Assembly: GCA_947383005.1 (NCBI GenBank)
Contig: CANDBT010000026.1
Location: forward strand, 1 to 64,000
Length of the DNA: 64,000 bases
Origin: an uncultured bacterium
GTDB taxonomy: Bacteria; Bacillota; Clostridia; Lachnospirales; Lachnospiraceae
Direction of reading: 5' to 3'
Every line of letters begins with the position of its first letter. Within the stretch, counting starts at the first letter, position 1. The notes under the pieces were generated by a model. It worked only from the letters and a program-made list of their open reading frames with translations, had not been told where the DNA came from and made no database searches. Position numbers and translations under genes: made by a program. Shown one piece after another: positions 6,229 to 62,250 of this stretch.

Positions 6229-6244
6229 TTCAATTTTCCCTCCA

Positions 6245-6451
6245 TCAAAGTTTAATATCAAAATTATCACGAATCTCTTTAAATGCCGCTGTAGACCAAT
6301 GACCAATATATCCTCCATCACTTTCCAATTCAATTACGCCGCCAAGTTCATCATATACCATATTGTACTTTTCACCTTCTTTCCACTTTTCGATACTTGA
6401 AAATTCATAATCTCTTTTTGCAACTGCAAGCATTTTCTTACCAGCCATCAT
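6245..6451 (-). CDS. Hypothetical small protein
   Basis: A 68-residue protein of unknown family, with a tyrosine- and glycine-containing beta-rich middle (KYNMVYDELGGVIELESDGG). The ATG at 6451 follows GGGGGTG. It is one of a run of tightly packed small early genes, many preceded by a similar CGCTAAAG-type spacer. Confidence 0.55.
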   Translation of the reverse strand: MMAGKKMLAVAKRDYEFSSIEKWKEGEKYNMVYDELGGVIELESDGGYIGHWSTAAFKEIRDNFDIKL

Positions 6452-6465
6452 CCCATACACCCCCG

Positions 6466-6726
6466 CTAAAGTTTAATCTCACACTTCTTAGGATGCGTTT
6501 TCCCCTTAAACTTTTTCCATAATTCACATTTGCCATACCGATCTGACCGATTACTGCAATTAGCGCACTTTATATCCCTTTTGTGTGGATGTGTCGCTTT
6601 GTAATATGCAAGTCTACAGCGTTTACTACAAAACATGGCATCAGAACGGTTTGAAAGAAAACTGCTGCCACACTTCCAGCACCTGACTTCTTTTACAAAT
6701 TTCCCGTTGATATGTACGCCAGCCAT
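6466..6726 (-). CDS. Small zinc-finger protein
   Basis: An 86-residue protein with two zinc-finger-like halves: CWKCGSSF ... MFCSKRC at about 16-38, and IKCANCSNRSDRYGKCELW with a later cysteine at about 52-82. The first half resembles the zinc ribbon of small phage DNA-binding proteins. Lysine-rich C terminus. Probably nucleic-acid binding; specific role unknown. Confidence 0.7.
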   Translation of the reverse strand: MAGVHINGKFVKEVRCWKCGSSFLSNRSDAMFCSKRCRLAYYKATHPHKRDIKCANCSNRSDRYGKCELWKKFKGKTHPKKCEIKL

Positions 6727-6748
6727 TCATTCCTCCACTAAAGTTTAA

Positions 6749-7051
6749 TTAAGGTTTATAACATACCCTCATTTGCTTATATCCCAACCTTTCCAAATAT
6801 TCAGGCTCAATCAAAATATCATCGTATCCACGGAATTCCTCCCATGTCATACCATCATAGTACTTAGGGAAATAATAACCTTTTTCTTTTACTTCATTTT
6901 CGGAGTAAATCTCACAGTTATCTATATCACTTGTATATCCACCGAATGACCTCTCCTGTCCATCCTCTGTCCTACTGCCCCAAAACAATAAGGTTCCGCG
7001 GAACATACCAGAATGTTCATTACAGACAATTACATACCTCCTATCTCTCAT
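6749..7051 (-). CDS. Hypothetical early phage protein
   Basis: A 100-residue protein with many tyrosines and acidic residues; a central DNCEIYSENEVKEKGYYFP segment is followed by a YDGMTWEEFRGYDDILIEPEYL helix. I do not recognise the family. It overlaps the following upstream gene by 11 bases. Confidence 0.6.
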   Translation of the reverse strand: MRDRRYVIVCNEHSGMFRGTLLFWGSRTEDGQERSFGGYTSDIDNCEIYSENEVKEKGYYFPKYYDGMTWEEFRGYDDILIEPEYLERLGYKQMRVCYKP

Positions 7052-7287: not shown

Positions 7288-7581
7288 CTACTCAAAAATA
7301 ACTGACATGTCCTTTGCCAGCGCATACCCGTATTCACGGTTTGCCCCACACGATTTCTCCCAGCCTTTCAGCATATATATGCTCCCACACATCCCCAGCA
7401 TGGTTAAACTCATCCCCATATATTCCTCGTATGCTGTATCCTCTGGAAGCATGCTACCCACTGCTGCCGGGTTAATGACAGAGTACCCACATTTCTCCAA
7501 TTCGCATTCCTTTTCGCTGAACCGTTCCAAGTAATCATCTGTCCCAGTAACAGGCACGCTGATATAAATCCTCTCTTTCAC
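7288..7581 (-). CDS. DUF4406 protein (nucleoside deoxyribosyltransferase-like)
   Basis: A 97-residue protein starting RIYISVPVTG, with NPAA at about 37-40 and a C-terminal GWEKSCGANREYGYALA. These match DUF4406, which has the fold of nucleoside 2-deoxyribosyltransferases. The catalytic glutamate could be the one in REYGYA. It may act in nucleotide salvage or on modified nucleosides, but the activity is not proven for the family. Common in phage early operons. Confidence 0.8.
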   Translation of the reverse strand: MKERIYISVPVTGTDDYLERFSEKECELEKCGYSVINPAAVGSMLPEDTAYEEYMGMSLTMLGMCGSIYMLKGWEKSCGANREYGYALAKDMSVIFE

Positions 7582-7685: not shown

Positions 7686-8114
7686 CTATCCGCGGGATGC
7701 AAGGACGAGCGCATCCTCCCCAATATCGCCATCATTGGAATGCCTGCGCTTCTTGCAGGTTTCAAGCTGCTCATCCCTGTTATATCCGACCGACTCCTCC
7801 AGCTTTCCCTGGATCTGTTTTATCCTCTTAAGCTGGTATTCCCATGCGGCTTTAGCATAGGGATCCTCCATTAACCCAACACGCCCGCTCACTATGTCGT
7901 GATAATCTGCCAAGGCATCTATTATTATCCTAAGTTCGCCTACTACTGTCTCGATCCACTGCTCATGCATCCCCTTGGTCTCCATATAATGCCAGAACCG
8001 CTTCATGCGCTCATCAAATGTCTGGGCTGGATCAATATTCTTTTTCTCTTTCTTCTGTTTTATTTTCGCAGGAAGCTTCTGCTCCTCTGGAAATAAGCTT
8101 AACTGTCCTTCCAT
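7686..8114 (-). CDS. Hypothetical helical early protein
   Basis: A 142-residue, strongly charged helical protein starting MEGQLSLFPEEQ. The LSLF motif near the N terminus resembles a DNA sliding-clamp-binding peptide (QLxLF), an inference from the motif only. No clear ribosome binding site; instead a GC-rich inverted repeat (8118-8162 region) lies just upstream. Function unknown. Confidence 0.6.
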   Translation of the reverse strand: MEGQLSLFPEEQKLPAKIKQKKEKKNIDPAQTFDERMKRFWHYMETKGMHEQWIETVVGELRIIIDALADYHDIVSGRVGLMEDPYAKAAWEYQLKRIKQIQGKLEESVGYNRDEQLETCKKRRHSNDGDIGEDALVLASRG

Positions 8115-8214
8115 TTTTCAGGAGCCCGTGTACACGTCACCCCGGCCGGAGGCTCGGCTCCTTTCTTTTTATTTCCTCGGCAGATAATCTTCTATCCGCA
8201 TCTGACCATATGGT

Positions 8215-8499
8215 TCAAAATTCATCCACAATATTTCCCTTTTCTTGCTGCATACCTGTGAATAACAGGTTGTTTCTTCTCTGTGCCAGCTTTTCCGGAT
8301 CATTTTTAATCCACTCAAAGAGGTTTATCACATTCCCATCCAAGTCATTCACAGTCTCAATATTTGACCTCGACTTGTTGAATAGGACGGCTCCACTCCC
8401 CAGGAACGCTTCCAAGTAGCTATGATGGTCGGGAAAGAAACTGATAATCCACTCTGCAATAGACCACTTGCTTCCTGGGTATTTCATGATGGCTCTCAT
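8215..8499 (-). pseudogene. Truncated Dam-like adenine methylase
   Basis: Residues MRAIMKYPGSKWSIAEWI and FLGSGAVLFNK match the N terminus and SAM-binding motif I of D12-class (Dam) adenine methylases, and VNDLDGNVINLFEWI continues the match. The frame then changes into unrelated sequence and stops after 94 residues; a full Dam is about 270. The DPPY catalytic motif is absent, so it cannot methylate. It is probably the remnant of a deletion that fused the gene start to the leader of the next gene. Confidence 0.75.
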
Positions 8500-8611
8500 C
8501 CCCATAATTCGCAAAATCCCATAAAGTGCATACTCAATCATCCTCCGGCTCTTCATAGCCATATCCATCTTCTGACTCATCATCCCCTAAAAGTTCATCC
8601 GTTATATCTTC

Positions 8612-9181
8612 TTAATCTTCTGGCCCTTCGGATCCATCTTCCCCCGGCTCAATCTCAGGAATATCTACTTCCCTAAATTCCCCATCAATTACTTCGCCCT
8701 TGCCATCCGGCCCAGGAAGCCTTGGGATTTCCTTTCCCTCTATCAAGTTTGAATTGATAGAAGAACCGTCCTCGCCTTCTACATCCTCTTCCTCCTGCTG
8801 GAAATCCGCATCAAAAATACTCCGCTGTGAGGTATTGGCAATCGGCACCAGCTTGAATATTCCGGTATCTTCATCCATCACCAGTTCCATTTCATTGTTG
8901 AAAGAACTGGATTTTTCGTCATTGATTTTCACCGCTGATGTGACCTTATGCTTGAACTGGGGCTTGCTGACTTTCCTCGTCTCTCCCTCAACATCTGGAT
9001 CATAATTCGGGATATATTCATTTACCATCGTGACATCAATCTTCAATGCCATGCTACCCTCACTGGTGCCTTTCTCCTGCATATTGCCGATCAATCGCTG
9101 GAGGACAAAGTTCATATCTCTTTTCATATCCTCAAAAGTGTCGCTATCAAAATCCAACCTCTTTTCAAATTCTTCATTCAT
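8612..9181 (-). CDS. Acidic early phage protein, possibly truncated
   Basis: A 189-residue protein with a very acidic C terminus. The N-terminal part is helical; the middle carries EMELVMDEDTGIFKLV-type beta segments. It starts in a 4-base overlap (ATGA) with the DUF1351 gene upstream. After the TAA at 8612-8614 the same frame continues for 25 more codons, also very acidic, to a TGA at 8534, suggesting a recent nonsense mutation. Family known only from phages near recombination genes; function unknown. Confidence 0.7.
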   Translation of the reverse strand: MNEEFEKRLDFDSDTFEDMKRDMNFVLQRLIGNMQEKGTSEGSMALKIDVTMVNEYIPNYDPDVEGETRKVSKPQFKHKVTSAVKINDEKSSSFNNEMELVMDEDTGIFKLVPIANTSQRSIFDADFQQEEEDVEGEDGSSINSNLIEGKEIPRLPGPDGKGEVIDGEFREVDIPEIEPGEDGSEGPED

Positions 9182-10367: not shown

Positions 10368-10571
10368 CTAATAATCTTTCTTGATGAATCCTTTTCTTTC
10401 TGCACAGTTCATGCAATAATTGTATCTACCATATATAGTTGCACCACACCTTCTGCATTTGTGCCCCCTTCTGGTTGCCATTCCGGCTGGTTGACCGAGC
10501 TTGAAATAACAATTTTTGCAATATGTGTAGTGATCAGCACAATAGCCGCCGCATCTTTGGCAGTATGCCAT
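10368..10571 (-). CDS. Double zinc-ribbon protein
   Basis: A 67-residue protein with four CxxC pairs: CQRCGGYC, YCKNC, CRRCGAT and YCMNC. They form two zinc-ribbon units in tandem. Probably binds nucleic acid or serves as a small protein adaptor. Placed between RusA and the DUF1351 gene. Confidence 0.75.
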   Translation of the reverse strand: MAYCQRCGGYCADHYTYCKNCYFKLGQPAGMATRRGHKCRRCGATIYGRYNYCMNCAERKGFIKKDY

Positions 10572-10592: not shown

Positions 10593-11051
10593 TTAATCTA
10601 GTCCTATTGCCCGGATTGTCACATCAACCCTCGGCTGTTCGGAAAAGAACTTTCTCACCTGTGCATCCACGACAGCAGCATCATCATGGTATGCCACCTT
10701 ATTCAGACTGTCACAGATGATCTTCCCGATATTGTCCCAATCCGGTTTTTTTGTTGGCCGGATTTTATGCTCCAGCATGGCTCTCCTCTTTCCCCTGCTA
10801 GTGGATTTCGGGATCTCGTAGTAAGCGATAATCCTCACATCCAGGGCCGCATCCTCGCTGAACATCTTCCCTTCCGCCGCCTGCTGATACATCAGCTTAA
10901 CCAGATTCTCATATCTCACCGTTTCATCAGGCGTATATGTCTTTACATAGCGCCCTGCCTTGGAAAATTTGGGTCTCTGTTTCCCAAATGGCTGACCTGG
11001 TACAGAAAACTTAATCTTCTTCATGGCTTCATCCTTTTCCATCCGCTCCAT
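10593..11051 (-). CDS. rusA: RusA-like Holliday junction resolvase
   Basis: A 152-residue protein with the RusA pattern: PGQPFGKQRPKFS near the N terminus and the catalytic acidic block KPDWDNIGKIICDSLN at about 108-123, followed by YHDDAAVVD. RusA dimers cut four-way junctions made during recombination and replication. Here it probably resolves junctions before packaging, together with RecT and the partner nuclease. Start preceded by AGGAGG with a short spacer. Confidence 0.9.
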   Translation of the reverse strand: MERMEKDEAMKKIKFSVPGQPFGKQRPKFSKAGRYVKTYTPDETVRYENLVKLMYQQAAEGKMFSEDAALDVRIIAYYEIPKSTSRGKRRAMLEHKIRPTKKPDWDNIGKIICDSLNKVAYHDDAAVVDAQVRKFFSEQPRVDVTIRAIGLD

Positions 11052-18235: not shown

Positions 18236-18811
18236 ATGAAACCATTAACCGGAAATGAGGAATTTACCTTTCATGGCGCCAATACAGGACTATCAGTCAA
18301 AGACTTTTGGATCTGGGCGTATTCTGATTTAATTGACAACACCCAGCGTGGGGTAATGGCAGAATTTCTCGTTTATTCATCATTAAGAAATATCTCTCCG
18401 GATGCACAAATGCGGTTGAACTGGCTTCCTTTTGATGTGGAAAGCCCCTCCGGACGCCGGATTGAAGTAAAATCTGCCGCTTACATCCAAGCCTGGACCC
18501 CAGAAAATATCTTTGCTCAGATCCGTTTTGATATTGGGAAGAAATTGGCTTGGGATAATACAACTGCTGCTTATGCCCCTGAGGCAAAACGCAACTGCGA
18601 CCTATATGTTTTCTGCCTCTTTACTGCCAAGACAAAGGATGTCTCCCTGCTCGACCTGGACTATTGGGATTTTTATGTGCTGCCTACATCCGTTCTGAAT
18701 GAAAAAATGCCAGATCAGAAAGGAATATCTTTATCCTCCCTGCTCAAACTGGAACCGATAAAGACAAACTATTCAGGGCTTTGCTCTGTAATTGAATCAA
18801 TCAATCTGTAA
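18236..18811 (+). CDS. PD-(D/E)XK nuclease-like cargo protein
   Basis: A 191-residue protein with a typical metal-binding core: WLPFDVESPSGRRIEVKSAA (D ... ExK) at about 64-83, preceded by a conserved acidic helix (MAEFLVYSSL). This is the fold of restriction endonucleases and defence nucleases. GGAGG precedes the ATG at 18236. Position in the lysogeny module suggests a function in the lysogen, such as exclusion of other phages. No cognate methylase or partner is evident except possibly the small gene before it. Confidence 0.7.
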   Translation: MKPLTGNEEFTFHGANTGLSVKDFWIWAYSDLIDNTQRGVMAEFLVYSSLRNISPDAQMRLNWLPFDVESPSGRRIEVKSAAYIQAWTPENIFAQIRFDIGKKLAWDNTTAAYAPEAKRNCDLYVFCLFTAKTKDVSLLDLDYWDFYVLPTSVLNEKMPDQKGISLSSLLKLEPIKTNYSGLCSVIESINL

Positions 18812-18824
18812 AGGATGTGACGCT

Positions 18825-19955
18825 ATGAAACTGCCAAACGGCTATGGAAGTGTAACTAAATTATCTGGCAATAGGCGCAAACCATATCTCGCCCGCATTA
18901 CACTTGGATGGTCCCTTGATGAACAAACTGGCAAAGCAAAACAAAACCGTGTCCCACTTGGGACCTTCAAAACCAAGAAAGAGGCTCTACAGGCATTAGC
19001 TGAATACAGTGCTAATCCCTATGAAATTCAAGGAAATAATCTCATTTTAATTGAGCTTTATCAAAAATGGACTGATTCCTATTTCCCTACACTTGAAAGT
19101 CCATCGTCTGTAAGGACGATTAATTCTGCATGGAAATACTGTCATGCAATCTACAATATGCGAGTTAAAGATATCCGAGCTAGGCATATAAAAGGAATTA
19201 TGGAGGATGGTTTTATTATTTCTGACCGTGGTAAAGATGCTGGTAAAAAAGTAATGGCCTCTCCCAACACCAAAGCCCGGATTAAATCTTTATTCAATCT
19301 CATGTTAGATTATGCTGTAGAATATGAATTAGTGGACAAAAACTATGCAAGGACTTTTGACTTATCATCCGATATTGTGAAGGAAAAAAGCGATTCCACC
19401 AGAGACCATATTGCCTTTACGGATAAAGAAATGAAAGCACTATGGGACAATGTGGATCGCCTACGTTTTGTGGACTGGATTTTGATTCAGTGTTATATGG
19501 GATGGAGGCCACAAGAGCTTGCCATTTTGAGAATTGAAGATGTTAATCTGGAAGGACAATATATTACAGGAGGAATGAAAACAGATTCTGGGAAAAACCG
19601 TATAGTACCTATCCACCCCCGCATAAAAGGACTAATATCAAAAAACTATAGCGAAGCCATTACGCTTGGCAGCAAATATCTCCTTAATGACCCTAAATCT
19701 CCCAAAGGTGGAATGAGTATTACATACGATAAATATGCAGGCCGTTTTGATAAGATTATAAGCTCCCTAAATTTACGCAAAGATCATCGCCCCCATGACC
19801 CGCGTAAAACTTTCGTTACCATGGCCAAAAAGGCCGGTGTCGATGAATACGTGATCAAGCGAATTATCGGCCACAGAATTACAGACCTGACCGAGGGGAC
19901 ATATACTGAACGAGATCTGGAATGGCTGAAAAGGGAAATCGAAAAAATACCATAA
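18825..19955 (+). CDS. int: Tyrosine integrase
   Basis: A 376-residue integrase with an N-terminal arm-binding segment (LPNGYGSVTKLSGNRRKPYL), a SAM-like core-binding region and a catalytic domain with the residues R (GWRPQELA), K (TDSGKNR), HxxR (HDPRKT), H (GHRI) and Y (YTERDL). It would insert the circular phage genome into the host chromosome. The start at 18825 follows AAAGGATG. It shares its message with the repressor and cargo genes. attP is likely just downstream. Confidence 0.95.
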   Translation: MKLPNGYGSVTKLSGNRRKPYLARITLGWSLDEQTGKAKQNRVPLGTFKTKKEALQALAEYSANPYEIQGNNLILIELYQKWTDSYFPTLESPSSVRTINSAWKYCHAIYNMRVKDIRARHIKGIMEDGFIISDRGKDAGKKVMASPNTKARIKSLFNLMLDYAVEYELVDKNYARTFDLSSDIVKEKSDSTRDHIAFTDKEMKALWDNVDRLRFVDWILIQCYMGWRPQELAILRIEDVNLEGQYITGGMKTDSGKNRIVPIHPRIKGLISKNYSEAITLGSKYLLNDPKSPKGGMSITYDKYAGRFDKIISSLNLRKDHRPHDPRKTFVTMAKKAGVDEYVIKRIIGHRITDLTEGTYTERDLEWLKREIEKIP

Positions 19956-37472: not shown

Positions 37473-37494
37473 AAAAAAAGAGCCCCTTGGCTCC
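37473..37494 (-). terminator. Terminator between lysis genes and the fibre cassettes
   Basis: GAGCC (37480-37484) and GGCTC (37489-37493) form a short stem; on the minus strand a run of seven T follows (plus A 37473-37479). A related hairpin (GAGCC/GGCTC) lies at 41301-41315 beside another cassette. Confidence 0.55.
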
Positions 37495-37518
37495 TACTAG
37501 CAAAATGAAATTGTTTGT

Positions 37519-38094
37519 GAATTAAATAATAATTTAAAGCAGACTTTTCAGGCTGGTGTTGACGCTTTGTATAACAGATGCGTGAGCTGTGGGGCAACAC
37601 CCAGCGCGAAAACTCCCACAGCGGTCAGTACAGCCATAGGCACCATCCATACCAACAGATACAATGACGGCTACAGCGCTGGAAATGCGGCTGGCTATAA
37701 CAGCGGGCGTACCCAAGGGCAAAATGATGTTAAAGGCAACCCTGCGGCATATGGAATTGCAACAATTGAAAACAGCAGTTTTACTGTACTTGCATCGGGG
37801 GCAAATGCAAATTCATGGTCCAGCCTTGACCAGACTTTTACTGTAACAAAAAATGGGATGCTAACAATTTCAGTTTTCCGTCTTTATTACGGTGCCCCTC
37901 AGGTATTTAAAAACGGCGCAGGGGTAGGCGCTGTGAAATCTCAACCAGGGGATTCAAACACCAGCAAAACTCCTCAGTGTATGGATACATTTGCATTTAA
38001 AGCCCAAGCCGGTGATACTATTAGGGTTTATTCCCCAACGGTTACTACAGGGGACAACAGGGGCGCAATTTTTATTGCAGGTATAGTTGCCTAA
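37519..38094 (+). CDS. Silent tail-fibre C-terminal cassette 1
   Basis: An open frame of 191 codons with no plausible start and no ribosome binding site, preceded by TAG. It begins with NNLKQTFQAGVDALYNRCVS and ends with a beta-rich tip (about 105-190). It is about 96-100 percent identical at DNA level to cassette 3 (41371-41945). It reads in the same frame from its AT-rich core as the expressed gene, so inversion would fuse it to the expressed N terminus. Confidence 0.75.
   Translation, partial: ELNNNLKQTFQAGVDALYNRCVSCGATPSAKTPTAVSTAIGTIHTNRYNDGYSAGNAAGYNSGRTQGQNDVKGNPAAYGIATIENSSFTVLASGANANSWSSLDQTFTVTKNGMLTISVFRLYYGAPQVFKNGAGVGAVKSQPGDSNTSKTPQCMDTFAFKAQAGDTIRVYSPTVTTGDNRGAIFIAGIVA
37520..37537 (+). 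repeat. Recombination core site A
   Basis: AATTAAATAATAATTTAA at the start of cassette 1; the core TTAANTAATAATTTAA is shared by all four sites, with N = A here. It is an AT-rich, roughly palindromic sequence, suited to a XerCD-like tyrosine recombinase. Confidence 0.65.
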
Positions 38095-38155
38095 GACCTG
38101 CTAATGTTTATTCGGTATAGTTAATCTTCCAAATTAGAGAGATATTACAGTATAA

Positions 38156-38636
38156 TCATTCTACGGTAATACTGTTAATGGTAAACATAGCTCCATTAGA
38201 TGTTACAGCTCCTCCTACGGTAGGCTGGGTAAAGCCCCAGTCCCCTGATTTACTCCAACTGCCATTAGAATTCTTGGCATATATAGCAGTTCCGCTTTTT
38301 GAGATATTATCTGGCAAAAGATTTAATGTCCAGCTCACGGTGATCTTTTTTACAGCATTTGCTACTGCGCCGGCATTATATCCGGCATTGTAGTTAGCAG
38401 TATATTGAGAGCCAGTATATAACCCATAGCTGTTGGGAGCTCCTTTGACATCATTCTGCCCCTGGGTACGTCCTGCCGAATAACCGGTATTATACCTATT
38501 GGTGTGGATAGTGCCTATGGCAGTGCTGACCGCTGCGGGGGTTTTCGCGCTGGGTGTTGCCCCGCAGCTCACGCACCTGTTATACAAGGCGTCAACACCA
38601 GCCTGAAAAGTCTGCTTTAAATTATTACTTAATTCG
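38156..38636 (-). CDS. Silent tail-fibre C-terminal cassette 2
   Basis: A 159-codon frame on the minus strand that starts at its core site (SELSNNLKQTF, FQAGVDALYNRCVSCG) and ends with SNGAMFTINSITVE. The longer computed frame runs antisense over the recombinase start and is not real. No start codon, so silent. Its tip sequence (about 95-159) differs from cassettes 1/3 and from the expressed gene, giving a third binding-tip version. Confidence 0.75.
38617..38634 (-). repeat. Recombination core site B
   Basis: Minus strand AATTAAGTAATAATTTAA, core variant N = G. Shares about 45 bases of flank with site A, through the cassette start. Confidence 0.65.
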
Positions 38637-38684
38637 CTTATCACACCCAAATCTGGTATCATATCCTCAAAAACGGAGGATACC

Positions 38685-39677
38685 ATGAAAGAGCAATTTA
38701 TTTGTGAAATCCTGCACCACCTACCTTCTTTTTCCTCTGACCAGCTATCAGAGATCAAAGATGCCATCCGCATTGTCCTATGCAAGTATGATCTGGAAGC
38801 CAAGGGCACATCCCTCCAAACCGTCAATAACACAAGCCTGCACTATCTGCAGATGTACTTAGAGTCCTGCGAGCAGGCCGGAAAGTCCAAAGGCACCTCC
38901 GGGCTTTACCGGTTCCACTTGTCCCACTTTTTGTCTTATGTAAATAAGGATGTCTCCCAGATCACTGACGATGATGTCTATACCTACCTGTACAATTACA
39001 GGCACAAACGCACTGTCAGCAACTCCTACCTTAACCAGATCCGGCTTATCCTCAACGGCTTTTTCAAATGGCTCATTAAGCGGCGGGTGCTTACTGCTAA
39101 TCCGGTTGACTCCATCGACTCCGTTAAATGCCAGAAAAAAGTAAAAAAGCCCTTGTCCGCCGAAGAGGTGGAGCTGCTCCGCTCCGCCTGTGACTCTGAG
39201 CGGGACCTTGCGATCGTGGAATGCCTTTACAGCACCGCTGTAAGGGCCTCTGAGCTCCTGCAACTCAACCGCTCTGATATTTCCTTTGCCGAAAATGATA
39301 TAATCGTCCTCGGCAAAGGGAATAAAGAACGCATTACCTACCTTAATGCAAGATCCCATATCCACCTGAGAAACTACCTGGAGCTGCGTACAGACGATAA
39401 CCAGGCTTTGTTTGTAAGCAGCAAAGCCCCCCATGAACGCCTTACCCGCCGGGGGCTGGAGGACATACTCAACCGGATTGCTGCCGCCGCAGATGTAAAA
39501 AATGTCCATCCCCACCGGTTCCGCCGCACAAGCGCCACTGACCTGCTCAATGCCGGCATGCCGATTGAGCAGGTACAGGAGCTGCTTGGCCATAAAAGCA
39601 TTGAGACCACACGCATTTACTGTACGGTAAACCAGGAAGCTGTGAAACATAACCATAAACGGTTCATGAATTTTTAA
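38685..39677 (+). CDS. Tyrosine recombinase (shufflon invertase-type)
   Basis: A 330-residue XerC/D-like recombinase: SAM-like N-terminal domain, then catalytic residues R187 (TAVRASELLQL), K211/K214 (GKGNKERI), H277 and R280 (PHRFRR), H303 (GHKSIETT) and Y312. GGAGG precedes the ATG at 38685. It starts 49 bases from site B and lies inside the segment that would be inverted. It differs from the integrase. Its likely role is to invert the fibre cassettes, as Rci does in plasmid R64. Confidence 0.85.
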   Translation: MKEQFICEILHHLPSFSSDQLSEIKDAIRIVLCKYDLEAKGTSLQTVNNTSLHYLQMYLESCEQAGKSKGTSGLYRFHLSHFLSYVNKDVSQITDDDVYTYLYNYRHKRTVSNSYLNQIRLILNGFFKWLIKRRVLTANPVDSIDSVKCQKKVKKPLSAEEVELLRSACDSERDLAIVECLYSTAVRASELLQLNRSDISFAENDIIVLGKGNKERITYLNARSHIHLRNYLELRTDDNQALFVSSKAPHERLTRRGLEDILNRIAAAADVKNVHPHRFRRTSATDLLNAGMPIEQVQELLGHKSIETTRIYCTVNQEAVKHNHKRFMNF

Positions 39678-39739
39678 GCCCCCATTTTCCAGCCTGCTTC
39701 TTTTCAGCCTGCCTCCGGGAGGCTTATACATTGTGCCTT

Positions 39740-40189
39740 TTATCCTGCTGACCAGATCAAAGTATAATGCGGCCTTTCCCTTTTCCACATCCATGGACGC
39801 CACTTCCGGAATGCAAGATAATTCCAGTACCGCAACCAGTCATCAAGTACAATACAGGCCACGGCCAGCAGTATCCAAAGCAGGAAATAATATAGGCATA
39901 CCTGCCCCATCAGGTTAAACGGCAGGCCGGAATAATCCCATACATCCCAGCCAAGCCACAAGTTGACGACGCATCCCGTAAAAAATTCCAGGACTGTAAT
40001 TATAACTGCCCCTATCACTGCCTGCTGCATCAAAGCCAGATCCCACGGGAAAAGATGCTCATTGAGCAGTCCAATGATTACAAAGCATAAACCGCCCAAG
40101 ATAAACATTGTCCAGTGCGTCCTTCCCCGGCAGGCCAGCTCCAGCCATGTATATAACCTGCCTCCGATTAAAAACAGCAATATCTCCAT
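39740..40189 (-). CDS. CmpB-like membrane protein
   Basis: A 149-residue protein with four membrane helices and the motif ELACRGRTHWTMFILGGLCF at about 18-37, typical of PF06541 (putative ABC transporter type IV, CmpB-like). In phages it has no proven role; a holin-like function has been guessed. It lies inside the invertible region. Confidence 0.75.
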   Translation of the reverse strand: MEILLFLIGGRLYTWLELACRGRTHWTMFILGGLCFVIIGLLNEHLFPWDLALMQQAVIGAVIITVLEFFTGCVVNLWLGWDVWDYSGLPFNLMGQVCLYYFLLWILLAVACIVLDDWLRYWNYLAFRKWRPWMWKRERPHYTLIWSAG

Positions 40190-40192
40190 ACC

Positions 40193-41266
40193 CTACACCC
40201 CCTGCTGAGCTTCCTGTGCGGCATATATATCAGCCAATACCTCTGACCGGTATTCCTCCGGGATTACCATGCCATATGTTACGGCCTCCACAGACTCCCT
40301 GTCCTCCAGGCTGTTGATATAAATCCGCAGGTCACGGTAATATGTCACATGGTAAGTCACGCTTCCCATGGCCGCCTCCGTGATCAGGAGCATATCTTCC
40401 TTTGAGTAATACTTACAGTGTTCTGACTGGTCAGATGTGTGCCAGGGGATTTTCTCCATTCCGGACATTGCCTTTGCCTGCAGCCCCATGAGGCTTGTCT
40501 GGTCATATTCTGTCAGCGTAAAATGCTCCACGCTCCCATCCGTCAGTATAACATTGACACCCTCCTGGATCGCAGCCTGCTGTACGGTATTCATTTCCAT
40601 TATCTTCCTGGCCTTTACCTCTGCCAAGGTTTCCACATATGTAAATTTCGCCTGAAATGATGTATCATCATCTATCGCCCCTGTATCTGGGATTTCCGGT
40701 TCCCAGCCCTCAAATTTATAGTTTTCTCCCGGAACCGGTGAGGGAATAACCAAATCCTCATATCGATCCACGGCCTGAGACTTTTCCCCATTTATGGTCC
40801 CACCGTCCCCCGCGGTGAATGTCACCATAGGAACCGGTTTAAATTTTGCCTCGAATGTCATATCACCGCTGACCACACCTGTATCCGGAATTACCGGCTC
40901 CCAGCCAATAAATTTGAAATTTTCCCCAGGTATCGGTGATGGGACTTCCAAATCTTCATATCTGCTTACAGCCTGGGACTTTTCCCCGCCTATGGTTCCT
41001 CCGGGCCCTTCTGTAAAAGTCACTACAGGCAACGGCGGTACATATACACTTCCGTCATCTGAAAACTGCGCACCGCCGTCTACATTTTTGTAGACGGTCC
41101 GGAATCCTGTGTAATCCCAGTTATCATCACAGTCCAGACGTGACAGGATAAATCCATTCCCTTTTACAGGAAAATCGCCAGTTACCTGTACCACATGGTC
41201 ACTAACAGGACCAAAATCGACTACATATTTTGTATCCTGTTCTCCTACATACATAAGATATAACAT
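40193..41266 (-). CDS. Tail-fibre-associated protein with two InlB-like repeats and DUF4376
   Basis: A 357-residue protein. Residues 1-80 form an N-terminal domain; 81-144 and 147-210 are two near-identical bacterial (InlB B-type) repeats with the marker TINGEKSQAVDRYEDL; the rest (about 215-357) matches DUF4376, common in phage tail-fibre genes. Such repeats often bind or extend at the cell surface. GAAAGGAAAAAAAT precedes the ATG at 41266. Probably a fibre or fibre-assembly protein. Confidence 0.7.
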   Translation of the reverse strand: MLYLMYVGEQDTKYVVDFGPVSDHVVQVTGDFPVKGNGFILSRLDCDDNWDYTGFRTVYKNVDGGAQFSDDGSVYVPPLPVVTFTEGPGGTIGGEKSQAVSRYEDLEVPSPIPGENFKFIGWEPVIPDTGVVSGDMTFEAKFKPVPMVTFTAGDGGTINGEKSQAVDRYEDLVIPSPVPGENYKFEGWEPEIPDTGAIDDDTSFQAKFTYVETLAEVKARKIMEMNTVQQAAIQEGVNVILTDGSVEHFTLTEYDQTSLMGLQAKAMSGMEKIPWHTSDQSEHCKYYSKEDMLLITEAAMGSVTYHVTYYRDLRIYINSLEDRESVEAVTYGMVIPEEYRSEVLADIYAAQEAQQGV

Positions 41267-41370
41267 ATTTTTTTCCTTTCTCCCGAAAAATGGGTAAAAT
41301 AATAGAGCCTTTCGGCTCCAATTAATAGTTTCATATATAACTCTCCCCACTCCCTGTCTCCTTCTGACTG

Positions 41371-41945
41371 CATTAATTAATAATTTAAAGCAGACTTTTC
41401 AGGCTGGTGTTGACGCTTTGTATAACAGATGCGTGAGCTGTGGGGCAACACCCAGCGCGAAAACTCCCACAGCGGTCAGTACAGCCATAGGCACCATCCA
41501 TACCAACAGATACAATGACGGCTACAGCGCTGGAAATGCGGCTGGCTATAACAGCGGGCGTACCCAAGGGCAAAATGATGTTAAAGGCAACCCTGCGGCA
41601 TATGGAATTGCAACAATTGAAAACAGCAGTTTTACTGTACTTGCATCGGGGGCAAATGCAAATTCATGGTCCAGCCTTGACCAGACTTTTACTGTAACAA
41701 AAAATGGGATGCTAACAATTTCAGTTTTCCGTCTTTATTACGGTGCCCCTCAGGTATTTAAAAACGGCGCAGGGGTAGGCGCTGTGAAATCTCAACCAGG
41801 GGATTCAAACACCAGCAAAACTCCTCAGTGTATGGATACATTTGCATTTAAAGCCCAAGCCGGTGATACTATTAGGGTTTATTCCCCAACGGTTACTACA
41901 GGGGACAACAGGGGCGCTATTTTTATCGCAGGTGTTGTTGCATAA
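41371..41945 (+). CDS. Silent tail-fibre C-terminal cassette 3
   Basis: An open frame of 190 codons lying tail-to-tail with the expressed fibre gene. No start codon or binding site. Its protein is identical to cassette 1 except one residue near the end (IAGVVA versus IAGIVA). Inversion between its core and that of the expressed gene would put this tip on the fibre. Confidence 0.75.
41372..41388 (+). repeat. Recombination core site C
   Basis: ATTAATTAATAATTTAA, N = T, identical over 17 bases to site D on the opposite strand. It begins cassette 3. Confidence 0.7.
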
Positions 41946-41962
41946 ATTTACCACAGGAAAAA

Positions 41963-42613
41963 TTATATTTTGGCTACAGATATGGATTTTAGATTAACCA
42001 TATGCCATCCTGCTCCTCCTGAATATGAACCAATGCCAGGCCTGTTTAATGCCTGGTTTGGATGTCCATTTGTTGGGAATGATGTTGATACAGCCCCATT
42101 AACTATATCTATTGTCTGAGCAGTAAAAGCTTGTTCTCCTGTAAATTCATTCCTGCCATCGTATACATCTGCCTTTAAAAGTACGGTGATCCTATAGTTT
42201 GTGTTTATAACACTTGCCCTGCCGGCATTGTATCCAGCATTGTAGTTAGCCGTATATTGGGCGCCTGTATACAGGCCATAGCTGTTAGGGGAGCCTTTTA
42301 CATCATTCTGGCCCTGGGTACGGCCTGCATTATACCGATTAGTAGAGATTGCACTAATAGCGGCTGAAATCGCTGCAGGAGTTTTCGCGCTTGGTGTTAC
42401 CCCGCAGCTCACGCACGCATTATAAAGCGTGTCAACACCAGCCTGGAAAGACGTTGTTAAATTATTAATTAATCCCTTAACTGCCAATGCATCTACCGAC
42501 TTCCCTGATACCGTATTTGCATTGACCTGCTCCTGCGTTGTTAATAAGTCAGGCTTCGGGCAATACTTATTTCCTTCTGAATCTTCTATCTGGACATTGT
42601 ATGTACTTGCCAT
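41963..42613 (-). CDS. Expressed tail-fibre gene with variable tip
   Basis: A 216-residue protein. Residues 1-46 form a constant N-terminal part (MASTYNVQIEDSEGNKYCPK) that would attach to the baseplate. The core site D encodes LINNL at about 47-52. Then come a conserved stalk with GYNAG/NRYN repeats and a variable tip (about 130-216). It is the only copy with a start and a ribosome binding site. Recombination with cassettes 1-3 would replace everything after the core. Confidence 0.8.
   Translation of the reverse strand: MASTYNVQIEDSEGNKYCPKPDLLTTQEQVNANTVSGKSVDALAVKGLINNLTTSFQAGVDTLYNACVSCGVTPSAKTPAAISAAISAISTNRYNAGRTQGQNDVKGSPNSYGLYTGAQYTANYNAGYNAGRASVINTNYRITVLLKADVYDGRNEFTGEQAFTAQTIDIVNGAVSTSFPTNGHPNQALNRPGIGSYSGGAGWHMVNLKSISVAKI
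42457..42473 (-). repeat. Recombination core site D
   Basis: Minus strand ATTAATTAATAATTTAA inside the expressed fibre gene, in frame as LINNL. It matches site C perfectly, which would favour the C-D inversion (about 1.1 kb). Confidence 0.7.
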
Positions 42614-42627
42614 CTTTCTTCCTCCTC

Positions 42628-43425
<798 letters not shown>

Positions 43426-59347: not shown

Positions 59348-60278
59348 TCCTGCTACCCTCCTTTCCTGCTATTGGGGCATTGAATGTCCCGAACTTAAAT
59401 ACCGGCTTTGCACGGCACCGGCACTGGTAATCCTGTCCCGGATGGCAGTGCCTCCCTGTCATTACCTTTCTTCCCTTTTTGGTCACATACCACATCTCGG
59501 GCGGGTCATCCCAGCGGAATTTTTTCCCGTTCAGCGCCCTGTGGCAGTCCCTCACGCGGCCGTCCCCGCAGTCGCACCAGATGTATTCCTCTATCCCGGC
59601 ATCCCTCTGCTGTGCCTCTGTGACCGCCGCGTTCAATTTCCCTACCTGGTCCCTGGCAATCAGGCTGGCCCGGGACTTTTTCACATCATAGCAATTCTGG
59701 ATGTCCTTCATGATCCTTGTGGTGCTTTTCCCGTTTAAAAACCCGTCTTTTATAATCTTTCTCATATCCCCCAAAGTCTCTGACGGGATTGACGTTATCA
59801 GTGACACATTTTCATCCACCCACTGCTCCATAGCCGTGCGGTAGAACTCGCCCATGTAGTAATCTTCCAGAATATTAATCCCGAGCGTTTTGCTGACGGC
59901 CTTTTTCCATTCCTTTATTGTCAGCTTCCGTGTCAGGTTTGCAAAGGATTCCAGCTTCCTGCGCAGGCCGAAGCCCCTCTCCTTTTCGGTAAACCTCTTC
60001 TGTATCCTGTCAAGAACTTCCACCAGGAGCGAAAGTACGTCATTGATGCCGTCTGCCCGGTATGTCCCGCGCTCTTTCATGATCTGCCCCTTAAGCGCCG
60101 GAAGCTCCTCTTCCATGGTTTCCTTAAGGAGCCGCATATACGCACGGGAGAGGCGGGCATATTCCCGCTCTATGCTGACAGGGAATGCCGGGGTATACTT
60201 TGATACCAGGACATCATGGCCGTGGAACTTTTTTCGGATGATCTCCTGTATGGCTTCTTTGTTCATCTGCTCATCCAT
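59340..60278 (-). CDS. Minor head protein, Mu gpF-like
   Basis: A 312-residue protein. The C-terminal part with ASLIARDQVGKLNAAVTEAQ, YIWCDCGDGRVRDCHRALNG and HPGQDYQCRCRAKPVF matches the Mu F/gp7-like minor head domain, with several cysteines. It contributes to head assembly and DNA entry. Overlaps the portal gene by 8 bases. Confidence 0.85.
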   Translation of the reverse strand: MDEQMNKEAIQEIIRKKFHGHDVLVSKYTPAFPVSIEREYARLSRAYMRLLKETMEEELPALKGQIMKERGTYRADGINDVLSLLVEVLDRIQKRFTEKERGFGLRRKLESFANLTRKLTIKEWKKAVSKTLGINILEDYYMGEFYRTAMEQWVDENVSLITSIPSETLGDMRKIIKDGFLNGKSTTRIMKDIQNCYDVKKSRASLIARDQVGKLNAAVTEAQQRDAGIEEYIWCDCGDGRVRDCHRALNGKKFRWDDPPEMWYVTKKGRKVMTGRHCHPGQDYQCRCRAKPVFKFGTFNAPIAGKEGSRSA

Positions 60279-62250
60279 CGCGGCACCCGCCTCCCATATT
60301 CAATGTTTTTATTAATTCCTCCAGGGAAAGCCTGAACGGGGGGAACAAATCCTTTTCCATAAGCTCCTGCATGCTTTCAAACCTGGCACTGCTGATCTCT
60401 TCCCCATCACTGGCCGCAGTGCCATTGTATTCTGTACAGAGATAAAAATAAGCCGGACAAAATCCCTCCGGCATTACACTTTCGTCTATGTATCCTATCG
60501 GGATCAGCTCCTGCAGGCCAATGGAGAATTCCTCCATTGCCTCCCGCACGGCGGCTTCCTCCGGAGTCTCTCCCGGCTCGATATGGCCCCCGGGGCCGCA
60601 TATCCCCAATCCATCCAGCCTGTCTCCCACCAGAAATTCCCCGCCGTTTACCACAATGACCCCTACTCCTTTATTCCCTGTGGAGTCTCCATCTTTGTGT
60701 AGCCCTCTGGTAGCGTTACGGGTGCTGGGAGCCTTTATTTTATCCCCTATGGTAGTTTGTTTGTCTGAGGCATTTTCGCTGTTATTTTGGGCCTGCTCAG
60801 TGACCGTTTCCTCTCCCGGTATGTCAATTCCAAGGAGCCCGGCAATGTCCAGATCATCCTCTTCATTGATCAGGTCATTGACCGTAAACTCTTCGCTCCC
60901 TTTAAGCCCATCACGGACTTCCGAGACATCAAGCGCCCCCATATCCACATAAATCTGTGCTGTGGCTGCCTTTGTCTGCTCTGTGGTTGCCTTAATCGCA
61001 TCCACATTTGCCTGTTCTGCCTCACTCAGGGACCACAATGGCACAAAGCCAACCTTATAGGCCGGAACTTCCTTAATATCCCCGTTCTTCCTGCCGCATT
61101 CAAAGACCAGGTCAAGGAGCACCCTCAGATTCTTTTTCAGCATCATCTTCTGGATTTTTCCCACATAGTTGTAGTAGTTCTCCATATCGCTCTCCCCGGT
61201 GCTGTTCTCCCCTGCCGGGGAACGTCCGAATAAGATTGTCTGTGGGATGTGGGTCACGGCGGAGAGCATATTGCAGGTGCTGTCTATAATATCCTTCACC
61301 CCGGCCAGCGGCATGCTTTTGAAATCATATTCCTCTCCTTCGCTGTCAATTACAATGCTGCTCAGAATGCTTCTTGCCAGGTCGATCAGCTCCATGCGCT
61401 TAAGCACCTTATCCTCCCCATCCGGGGTCAGCAGCATGTTGGACAGGTTTTTCATCTTATGGACGGCCTGTACACACCGCTCCAGCATCCTGACGCTGAA
61501 AGAGTGGGATAGCACCGTCTCCCTGAGCGCGTGCTGTATCCGCAGGTGTTCCGGTATCCCAAAGAACTGGTAGACCGAATAAAAGCCGGTCTCCGGCAGT
61601 TTCCCATTACGGAATATGAGGCACCGGCTTTCATGCACCCTAAACCTCCCATACTGGCTGTTTATCCAGTAAAACTCCGGCTCCTGGAACTTGCTGCCGC
61701 GCCTGCGCACCTTTTCCGGATTGTAGGAATAAAGGGACGTCTGGTCCGGCTCCACAATTGCCCTTTCATAAACCCGCAGCTCTTCTACCGCTTCCACGCA
61801 GTCCCAATCAAGGGGCTCATCAATATCGCACCCATCATCCACCAGCATCACGATAACGGCGCCACCATAAAGCCTGGCCCACTTGATGGCCGTCGCCGCT
61901 TTATCCTCCCAGTCAAGCCGGTCCAGTTCATCCGAGATAAATTCCTCGACATCAGTATCATTCAGGCTGAAATCGTATCCATGCTTCACTGCTTCCTCTG
62001 CAGGCTCATCTATGATCGTGGCGAACAGGCCGTTCTCCATATACTGTTCTGTCAGCTCCAGGTCAGATACCGGCCCTTCGGCAGAATAGGTGTAGGCGGT
62101 GGAGCTGTCATTTTTTGTGTTATACCTGGTCAGTACATTTTGGTAGCCGCCGTCATAATTTCTTTTCTGCTCCTGCCCTTCGGATTTTTTCATCTGCAGG
62201 ATGCGGCGGCCGTTTTCTTCCTGGACATAATCATTCGTCTCGTTTTTCAC
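60271..62250 (-). CDS. Portal protein (DUF1073) with C-terminal Nudix domain
   Basis: A 659-residue protein. Residues about 35-480 match the DUF1073/Mu-like portal (ELTEQYMENGLFATIIDEPA at 66-85). After a Ser/Gln linker, residues about 525-650 form a Nudix hydrolase: box GGHIEPGETPEEAAVREAME (554-573) with the EExG-like glutamates. The portal is the DNA gate in the capsid vertex. A Nudix domain on it is striking and may destroy host nucleotides during infection or act structurally. GTG start after AAAAGGAGG. Confidence 0.85.
   Translation of the reverse strand: MKNETNDYVQEENGRRILQMKKSEGQEQKRNYDGGYQNVLTRYNTKNDSSTAYTYSAEGPVSDLELTEQYMENGLFATIIDEPAEEAVKHGYDFSLNDTDVEEFISDELDRLDWEDKAATAIKWARLYGGAVIVMLVDDGCDIDEPLDWDCVEAVEELRVYERAIVEPDQTSLYSYNPEKVRRRGSKFQEPEFYWINSQYGRFRVHESRCLIFRNGKLPETGFYSVYQFFGIPEHLRIQHALRETVLSHSFSVRMLERCVQAVHKMKNLSNMLLTPDGEDKVLKRMELIDLARSILSSIVIDSEGEEYDFKSMPLAGVKDIIDSTCNMLSAVTHIPQTILFGRSPAGENSTGESDMENYYNYVGKIQKMMLKKNLRVLLDLVFECGRKNGDIKEVPAYKVGFVPLWSLSEAEQANVDAIKATTEQTKAATAQIYVDMGALDVSEVRDGLKGSEEFTVNDLINEEDDLDIAGLLGIDIPGEETVTEQAQNNSENASDKQTTIGDKIKAPSTRNATRGLHKDGDSTGNKGVGVIVVNGGEFLVGDRLDGLGICGPGGHIEPGETPEEAAVREAMEEFSIGLQELIPIGYIDESVMPEGFCPAYFYLCTEYNGTAASDGEEISSARFESMQELMEKDLFPPFRLSLEELIKTLNMGGGCRDG

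Follow-up and report, generated by a model that had tools for sequence, protein, structure and literature searches.

How does a prophage come to carry one complete fibre gene among pieces of fibre genes that have no start, with a recombinase between them? The question is raised by positions 37,519 to 42,613 of a 64,000-nucleotide stretch of DNA from an uncultured Lachnospiraceae bacterium (contig CANDBT010000026.1, assembly GCA_947383005.1), which as a whole is called the window here. The answer we favor, with a probability of roughly 0.85, is that a tailed prophage of the Lachnospiraceae host carries a shufflon here that changes its tail tips by means of a tyrosine recombinase of its own. An earlier note on this DNA had proposed the same, and this is still the best reading, given the in-phase inverted site pairs, the selection on the hinge, and the inversions in the recombinase family. 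The open reading frames (ORFs) lie where that note placed them: a fibre gene with a start, three start-less C-terminal cassettes, and the recombinase.

37519..38094, plus strand: silent cassette 1, no start, same tip as cassette 3
37521..37537, plus strand: site A, 17-bp core match
38156..38635, minus strand: silent cassette 2, different tip, no start, 159 amino acids open (in-frame reading 38635-38159)
38617..38633, minus strand: site B, 17-bp core match, about 50 bp upstream of the recombinase ATG
38685..39677, plus strand: tyrosine recombinase (putative invertase), XerA-like, 330 amino acids (Phage_integrase 2.6e-37, SAM_4)
41370..41945, plus strand: silent cassette 3, no start, 191 amino acids open
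41372..41388, plus strand: site C, 17-bp core match
41963..42613, minus strand: expressed fibre gene, ORF of 216 amino acids (constant N-terminus, residues 1-47, plus the current tip, cassette 4)
42457..42473, minus strand: site D, 17-bp core match, core ATTAATTAATAATTTAA, within the expressed fibre gene

The 17-bp core, ATTAAxTAATAATTTAA, is found at every cassette and inside the full fibre gene, at 37521 (+), 38633 (-), 41372 (+), and 42473 (-), with 0-1 mismatch each. It is partly palindromic. The codon phase is identical at all four cores and the cassettes contain no internal stops, in agreement with the AT-rich core of identical phase described earlier. Six matches to the core with up to three mismatches exist in the window, where 0.50 are expected, and none of 100 shuffles reaches six. 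Of the two extra matches, one overlaps site D on the opposite strand and the other is unrelated. In the host genome (5.0 Mb), the four shufflon sites are the only matches with one mismatch to a wider core pattern; six other matches have two mismatches each. Two core-like matches found 3.7 kb apart on contig C11 were rejected as chance because the reversed pattern matches the genome four times.

The recombinase, located between sites B and C, has an intact frame. It is an armless XerD-like enzyme that combines a catalytic domain of the Phage_integrase family with a SAM-like domain for core binding, and it scores higher than the cut-off set for the XerA-like model NF040815. Among solved structures, those closest in sequence are 4a8e, XerD (1a0p), and XerA (5hxy). 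R187, K211, H277, R280, H303, and Y312, which we take to be the catalytic residues, are invariant in an alignment of 13 recombinases including that of the window. A separate integrase of 387 amino acids lies outside the switch (18792..19955, plus strand; Phage_integrase 5.5e-12) and shares no more than 21% identity with any recombinase on the tree described below. The XerCD-like enzyme is thus distinct from the integrase, as had been claimed.

Cassettes 1 and 3 differ by seven mismatches in 576 bp, none of them in positions 9-548 and five in the last 28 bases. It looks as if one tip was recently copied over an older relative, with the copying begun in the core. Since the two carry the same tip, the locus holds three different tips, not four.

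In the mechanism we propose, the recombinase would bind the AT-rich core and invert the DNA between oppositely oriented cores. Inversion of C-D (1.1 kb) or A-D (5.0 kb) would set another cassette behind the constant N-terminus, and this cassette would be in frame because all cores are in the same codon phase. Inversion of A-B (1.1 kb) would load cassette 2 for a later A-D inversion. Two late genes (39740-41266), absent from the earlier note, fall within both the A-D and the B-C segments. Inversion of B-C (2.8 kb) would flip this inner block of recombinase and late genes. A-D would turn the same genes unless B-C follows, and B-C could restore the orientation of the inner block after A-D. Three tips, each of which may bind a receptor, would be available from the locus. 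The earlier expectation of at least three versions from C-D, A-D, and A-B holds as to the three tips, but C-D and A-D give the same protein tip. The A-B exchange does reach cassette 2, but it needs two inversions (A-B, then A-D).

The start-less cassettes 1 and 2 share a 49-codon hinge, in which 11 synonymous and two non-synonymous changes are found on about 33 and 114 sites, respectively. The synonymous divergence (dS) is 0.45 and the non-synonymous divergence (dN) is 0.02. Selection at the protein level in two cassettes that are untranslatable in their present position implies that both are probably translated now and then. Of the evidence within the window, this is the most important; it concerns the shared hinge and does not extend to the tips.

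More evidence is found in other loci. A profile scan of IMG/VR gave 522 relatives, of which the best 80 were kept, and 96 loci (numbered with L) were examined. In four locus pairs (L127/L128, L086/L089, L039/L074, and L083/L085) a tip that is fused to the N-terminus in one locus lies silent and in inverted orientation in its partner. The L127/L128 cassette (361 bp) is 100% identical and inverted between the loci, and the flanks are collinear at 95-97%. In the same manner, a 330-bp cassette of 99.4% identity is joined or silent in L086/L089, and a 427-bp cassette of 98.8% identity in L039/L074. The junction sequences common to the two members are short: GCGTTAAACAGCAA (14 bp) in L127/L128, TAAATAGCAG (10 bp) in L086/L089, and AATCACAAAATTCTAAGAT (19 bp) in L039/L074. 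In L083/L085 the tip is found on opposite sides of the recombinase and in opposite orientation while the recombinase is unturned, the arrangement expected after one outer and one inner inversion. L084/L095 probably represents a local flip. It is less clear, as L084 has two similar blocks and the recombinase frame of L095 is broken. PHROGs tail families match the switched genes in L039 (2.5e-18) and L083 (3.7e-16). The recombinases of the inverted locus pairs are 37-45% identical to that of the window. Therefore, these inversions are evidence for the family, not for this phage.

One close relative is L016 from Parablautia intestinalis (Lachnospiraceae), whose recombinase is 96% identical. Its sites are at the same four places: A at 7522 (+), B at 7949 (-), C at 10484 (+), and D at 10894 (-). 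The inner pair B/C shares ATTAAATAAAGATTTA (16-bp core) and the outer pair ATTAAxTGATAATTTAA. Locus L023 (from genome G286, which falls in one family group with the host of the window) is contained letter for letter in L016. In L004, the constant N-terminus has 80% DNA identity up to the core and is followed by an unrelated tip; the homology ends at window position 42458, and an inverted site is found 0.6 kb away. The distance from site B to the recombinase start is 50-58 bp in the window, L016, L017, L018, L022, and L056. Among the 397 family genomes sampled, 12, the window's own included, have a recombinase match at E 1e-80 or better. Eight of the 11 others are in tail context, or seven under a stricter rule (L016 stands for G286).

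Some of these relatives deserve a remark. The recombinases at L022:8001-8989 and L056:7001-7989 are 82% and 80% identical to that of the window, and each frame has a break near the N-terminus, either by loss or by assembly error. L017:1-6738 has a recombinase 85% identical to that of the window. The gene close to it is not a tail gene but one for an SPP1-type portal, which looks like loss of the intervening region or a move of the module. In L018:1-3440 an array of site and cassettes stops beside an EamA-like transporter gene, with no fibre N-terminus; this is probably a prophage remnant.

Three things underlie the 'tail fibre' label: the position of the gene, its collagen-like and DUF4376/phrog_1348 'tail fiber' neighbors, and the related loci. 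Fibre and cassettes have only weak matches in Pfam and PHROGs (best E 0.0076), and Methylase_S matches neither. A phage collection searched with the fibre or cassette 3 gave no match.

Several observations weigh against a shufflon. A second arrangement of this phage was not found in the 397 family genomes or IMG/VR. The fibre query matches one other family genome and the cassette-3 query two others; in IMG/VR, the fibre query finds one contig of the same sequence as L016, and a further search for hinge relatives finds that contig only. The earlier suggestion that related phages be searched for other arrangements was rewarded by the tip inversions in four locus pairs, but by none of this phage itself. 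In L016, L004, L022, and L056, the CmpB-like and DUF4376 genes (the two late genes) are on the recombinase side of the fibre in late-operon orientation, as in the window, and no frozen A-D or B-C inversion is found in the clade. Therefore, a lone A-D inversion is either rare or then followed by B-C. The recombinase frame is broken in two of six close relatives (L022 and L056, both assembled from metagenomes) and also in L095. The structures predicted for the fibre and cassette 3 are too poor for use, with a mean predicted local distance difference test (pLDDT) score of 42.9 and 47.6. As for the inverted pairs, the tail identity of the switched genes in L086/L089 comes from a weak phrog_3639 match (L089, 9e-4), and in L127/L128, where neither Pfam nor PHROGs gives a match, from position alone.

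A frozen remnant, in which the switch once worked and the present arrangement has become fixed, would explain why no alternative arrangement was found for this phage, why the late-gene block is turned the same way in all four relatives that retain it, and why the L022 and L056 recombinases are broken. Yet the window's recombinase is intact, all four cores are kept, the silent cassettes are open, and their hinge is under purifying selection. We consider such a remnant unlikely.

Inverted repeats accompany the recombinase across the family. With arms at least 150 bp apart, E <=1e-3, and within 3 kb of the recombinase, an inverted repeat is found in 42 of the 96 loci, compared with two of 118 control windows (3.5-6 kb) taken from these loci, some of which nearly duplicate others. 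The method misses short sites, for example those of L004, L018, L022, and L056. This association bears on another explanation: ordinary homologous recombination between the 150-bp hinge repeats swaps the cassettes, and the recombinase has some other job. The hinge repeats are in fact inverted and 72-90% alike, and cassettes 1 and 3 look homogenized over 540 bp. However, the junctions in L127/L128, L086/L089, and L039/L074 share just 10-19 bp, the tips of L004 have no hinge and still retain the core, and the recombinase goes with inverted repeats throughout the family, so that this explanation is very improbable. The sequence of the recombinase, closest to XerA/XerC/XerD, might suggest an enzyme that resolves dimers or a second enzyme for integration, located here by accident. 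This is hardly credible, since six loci have site B at 50-58 bp from the start of the recombinase gene and many relatives exist in inverted cassette arrays.

A shufflon with a dedicated recombinase is also consistent with the gene context of the family. Of the 96 loci, 53 are in tail context, 15 in HsdS context, one is lysis only, 27 are unclassified, and none has both tail and HsdS. The context queries were partly drawn from the same loci, and 10 of the 53 tail labels depend on queries taken from the locus itself or from a near copy of it; without such queries the counts are 43 tail, 15 HsdS, six lysis only, and 32 unclassified. Methylase_S was confirmed in all five HsdS proteins scanned. On a tree of 98 recombinases and the integrase, the labeled rows are 54 tail and 16 HsdS (window and L019 included), with 28 unlabeled ones uncounted. 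Tail and HsdS are separated by one label change (support 90); none of 500 shuffles is as low and the shuffle mean is 14.6. Several long branches leave parts of the tree unsure, and removing the 10 weaker tail labels cannot add label changes. A broader interpretation is tentative, and we would put it at somewhat worse than even odds. It places the window in one broad clade of dedicated phage tail-tip invertases, well represented in gut Bacillota and sister to the HsdS invertases, and it makes the switch here a nested one, in which the outer sites would swap tips and the inner sites (which have their own core in L016) would reset late-gene orientation.

Two further arrays can be mentioned separately. 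In L088, two 0.7-kb cassettes (6232-6937 and 8126-8835), 79.8% identical, are inverted on either side of the recombinase and resemble the doubled cassette of the window. L019:6970-10232, from a Muribaculaceae isolate, is an HsdS (Methylase_S) array that surrounds a recombinase with 39% identity to that of the window.

Rci and Gin had been named as precedents. Rci swaps the adhesin C-termini of R64 pilV by inversion, its target being a plasmid pilin. Inversion by Gin, Cin, and Min likewise swaps tail-fibre C-termini, but these are serine recombinases, while the enzyme here has a tyrosine Phage_integrase domain. The Rin shufflon of Bifidobacterium prophages is the better precedent. It is reported to have a constant N-terminus of the receptor-binding protein (RBP), silent C-terminal variants, and an armless XerD-like recombinase distinct from the integrase (PMC6109161). 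Compared by description, the likeness extends to the constant N-terminus, start-less variants, short asymmetric sites, and a non-integrase XerD-like recombinase. In the same account, the Rin recombinase is at the array flank opposite the constant gene; here it is inside, together with two late genes. The Rin site is 11 bp (TTCCCTAACCC) and here it is 17 bp and AT-rich, and the host phylum differs. The Rin site was not found in the loci searched. Another Rin-like shufflon, in Eggerthella lenta clade 1 prophages, is described with the same logic and a tyrosine recombinase beside variable tip genes; its 8-bp site (ttccgtat) and actinobacterial host are unlike those here (PMC8778435). HsdS shufflons, such as that of PsrA in Streptococcus pneumoniae, are also reported to have gene segments inverted by a tyrosine recombinase (PMC4948785, PMC7096588). 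HsdS arrays are home to homologues of the window's recombinase, but they target a restriction specificity gene and are on the opposite side of the tree from the tail-linked ones. PMC8042965 concerns host invertons.

Tyrosine-recombinase RBP shufflons are thus known from these reports (PMC6109161, PMC8778435). None of Lachnospiraceae phages was found in the open PubMed Central (PMC) literature, subscription papers lying outside the search. What look new are the Lachnospiraceae host and a nested arrangement in which the inner two sites enclose the invertase and two late genes. If the switch is active, one lysogen would release virions with different tail tips, and phages of common gut bacteria would vary in host range with no need of mutation. 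The related locus pairs are before and after arrangements open to direct test, and the tree ties phage tail switches to restriction-specificity switches via one recombinase family.

The locus lies among tail and lysis genes, and the window also contains genes for a terminase, a portal, a tape measure, DUF3383, DUF2612, and an endolysin. The features nearest to the switch are as follows.

37478..37495, minus strand: terminator-like hairpin just outside site A, consensus match only
39740..40189, minus strand: CmpB-like membrane protein, late orientation, within the B-C segment (PF06541 1.8e-11)
40193..41266, minus strand: DUF4376 protein with InlB-type repeats, within the B-C segment (PF14301 7.6e-7; phrog_1348 tail fiber protein 5.1e-8), possibly a tail accessory
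41303..41320, minus strand: terminator-like hairpin between site C and the DUF4376 gene, consensus match only
42628-43425: collagen-like tail fibre, adjoining the fibre gene

Both hairpins have counterparts in L016 (7496-7479 and 10439-10424, respectively), which are also consensus matches only. A hairpin over the recombinase start was considered as translational control and rejected, as it is weak or absent in L018, L022, and L056. Matches from a promoter scan were not used.

The CmpB-like protein (phrog_20274) accompanies tail switches at window 39740-40189 and in 15 loci (L004, L016, L022, L036, L037, L039, L048, L056, L069, L071, L073, L074, L078, L124, and L131), 13 of which also have a DUF4376-type gene. 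Farther away, the portal protein (window 60271-62250) has a fused C-terminal NUDIX domain (PF06381 + PF00293). This fusion is not unique, because phrog_15528 spans residues 26-650.

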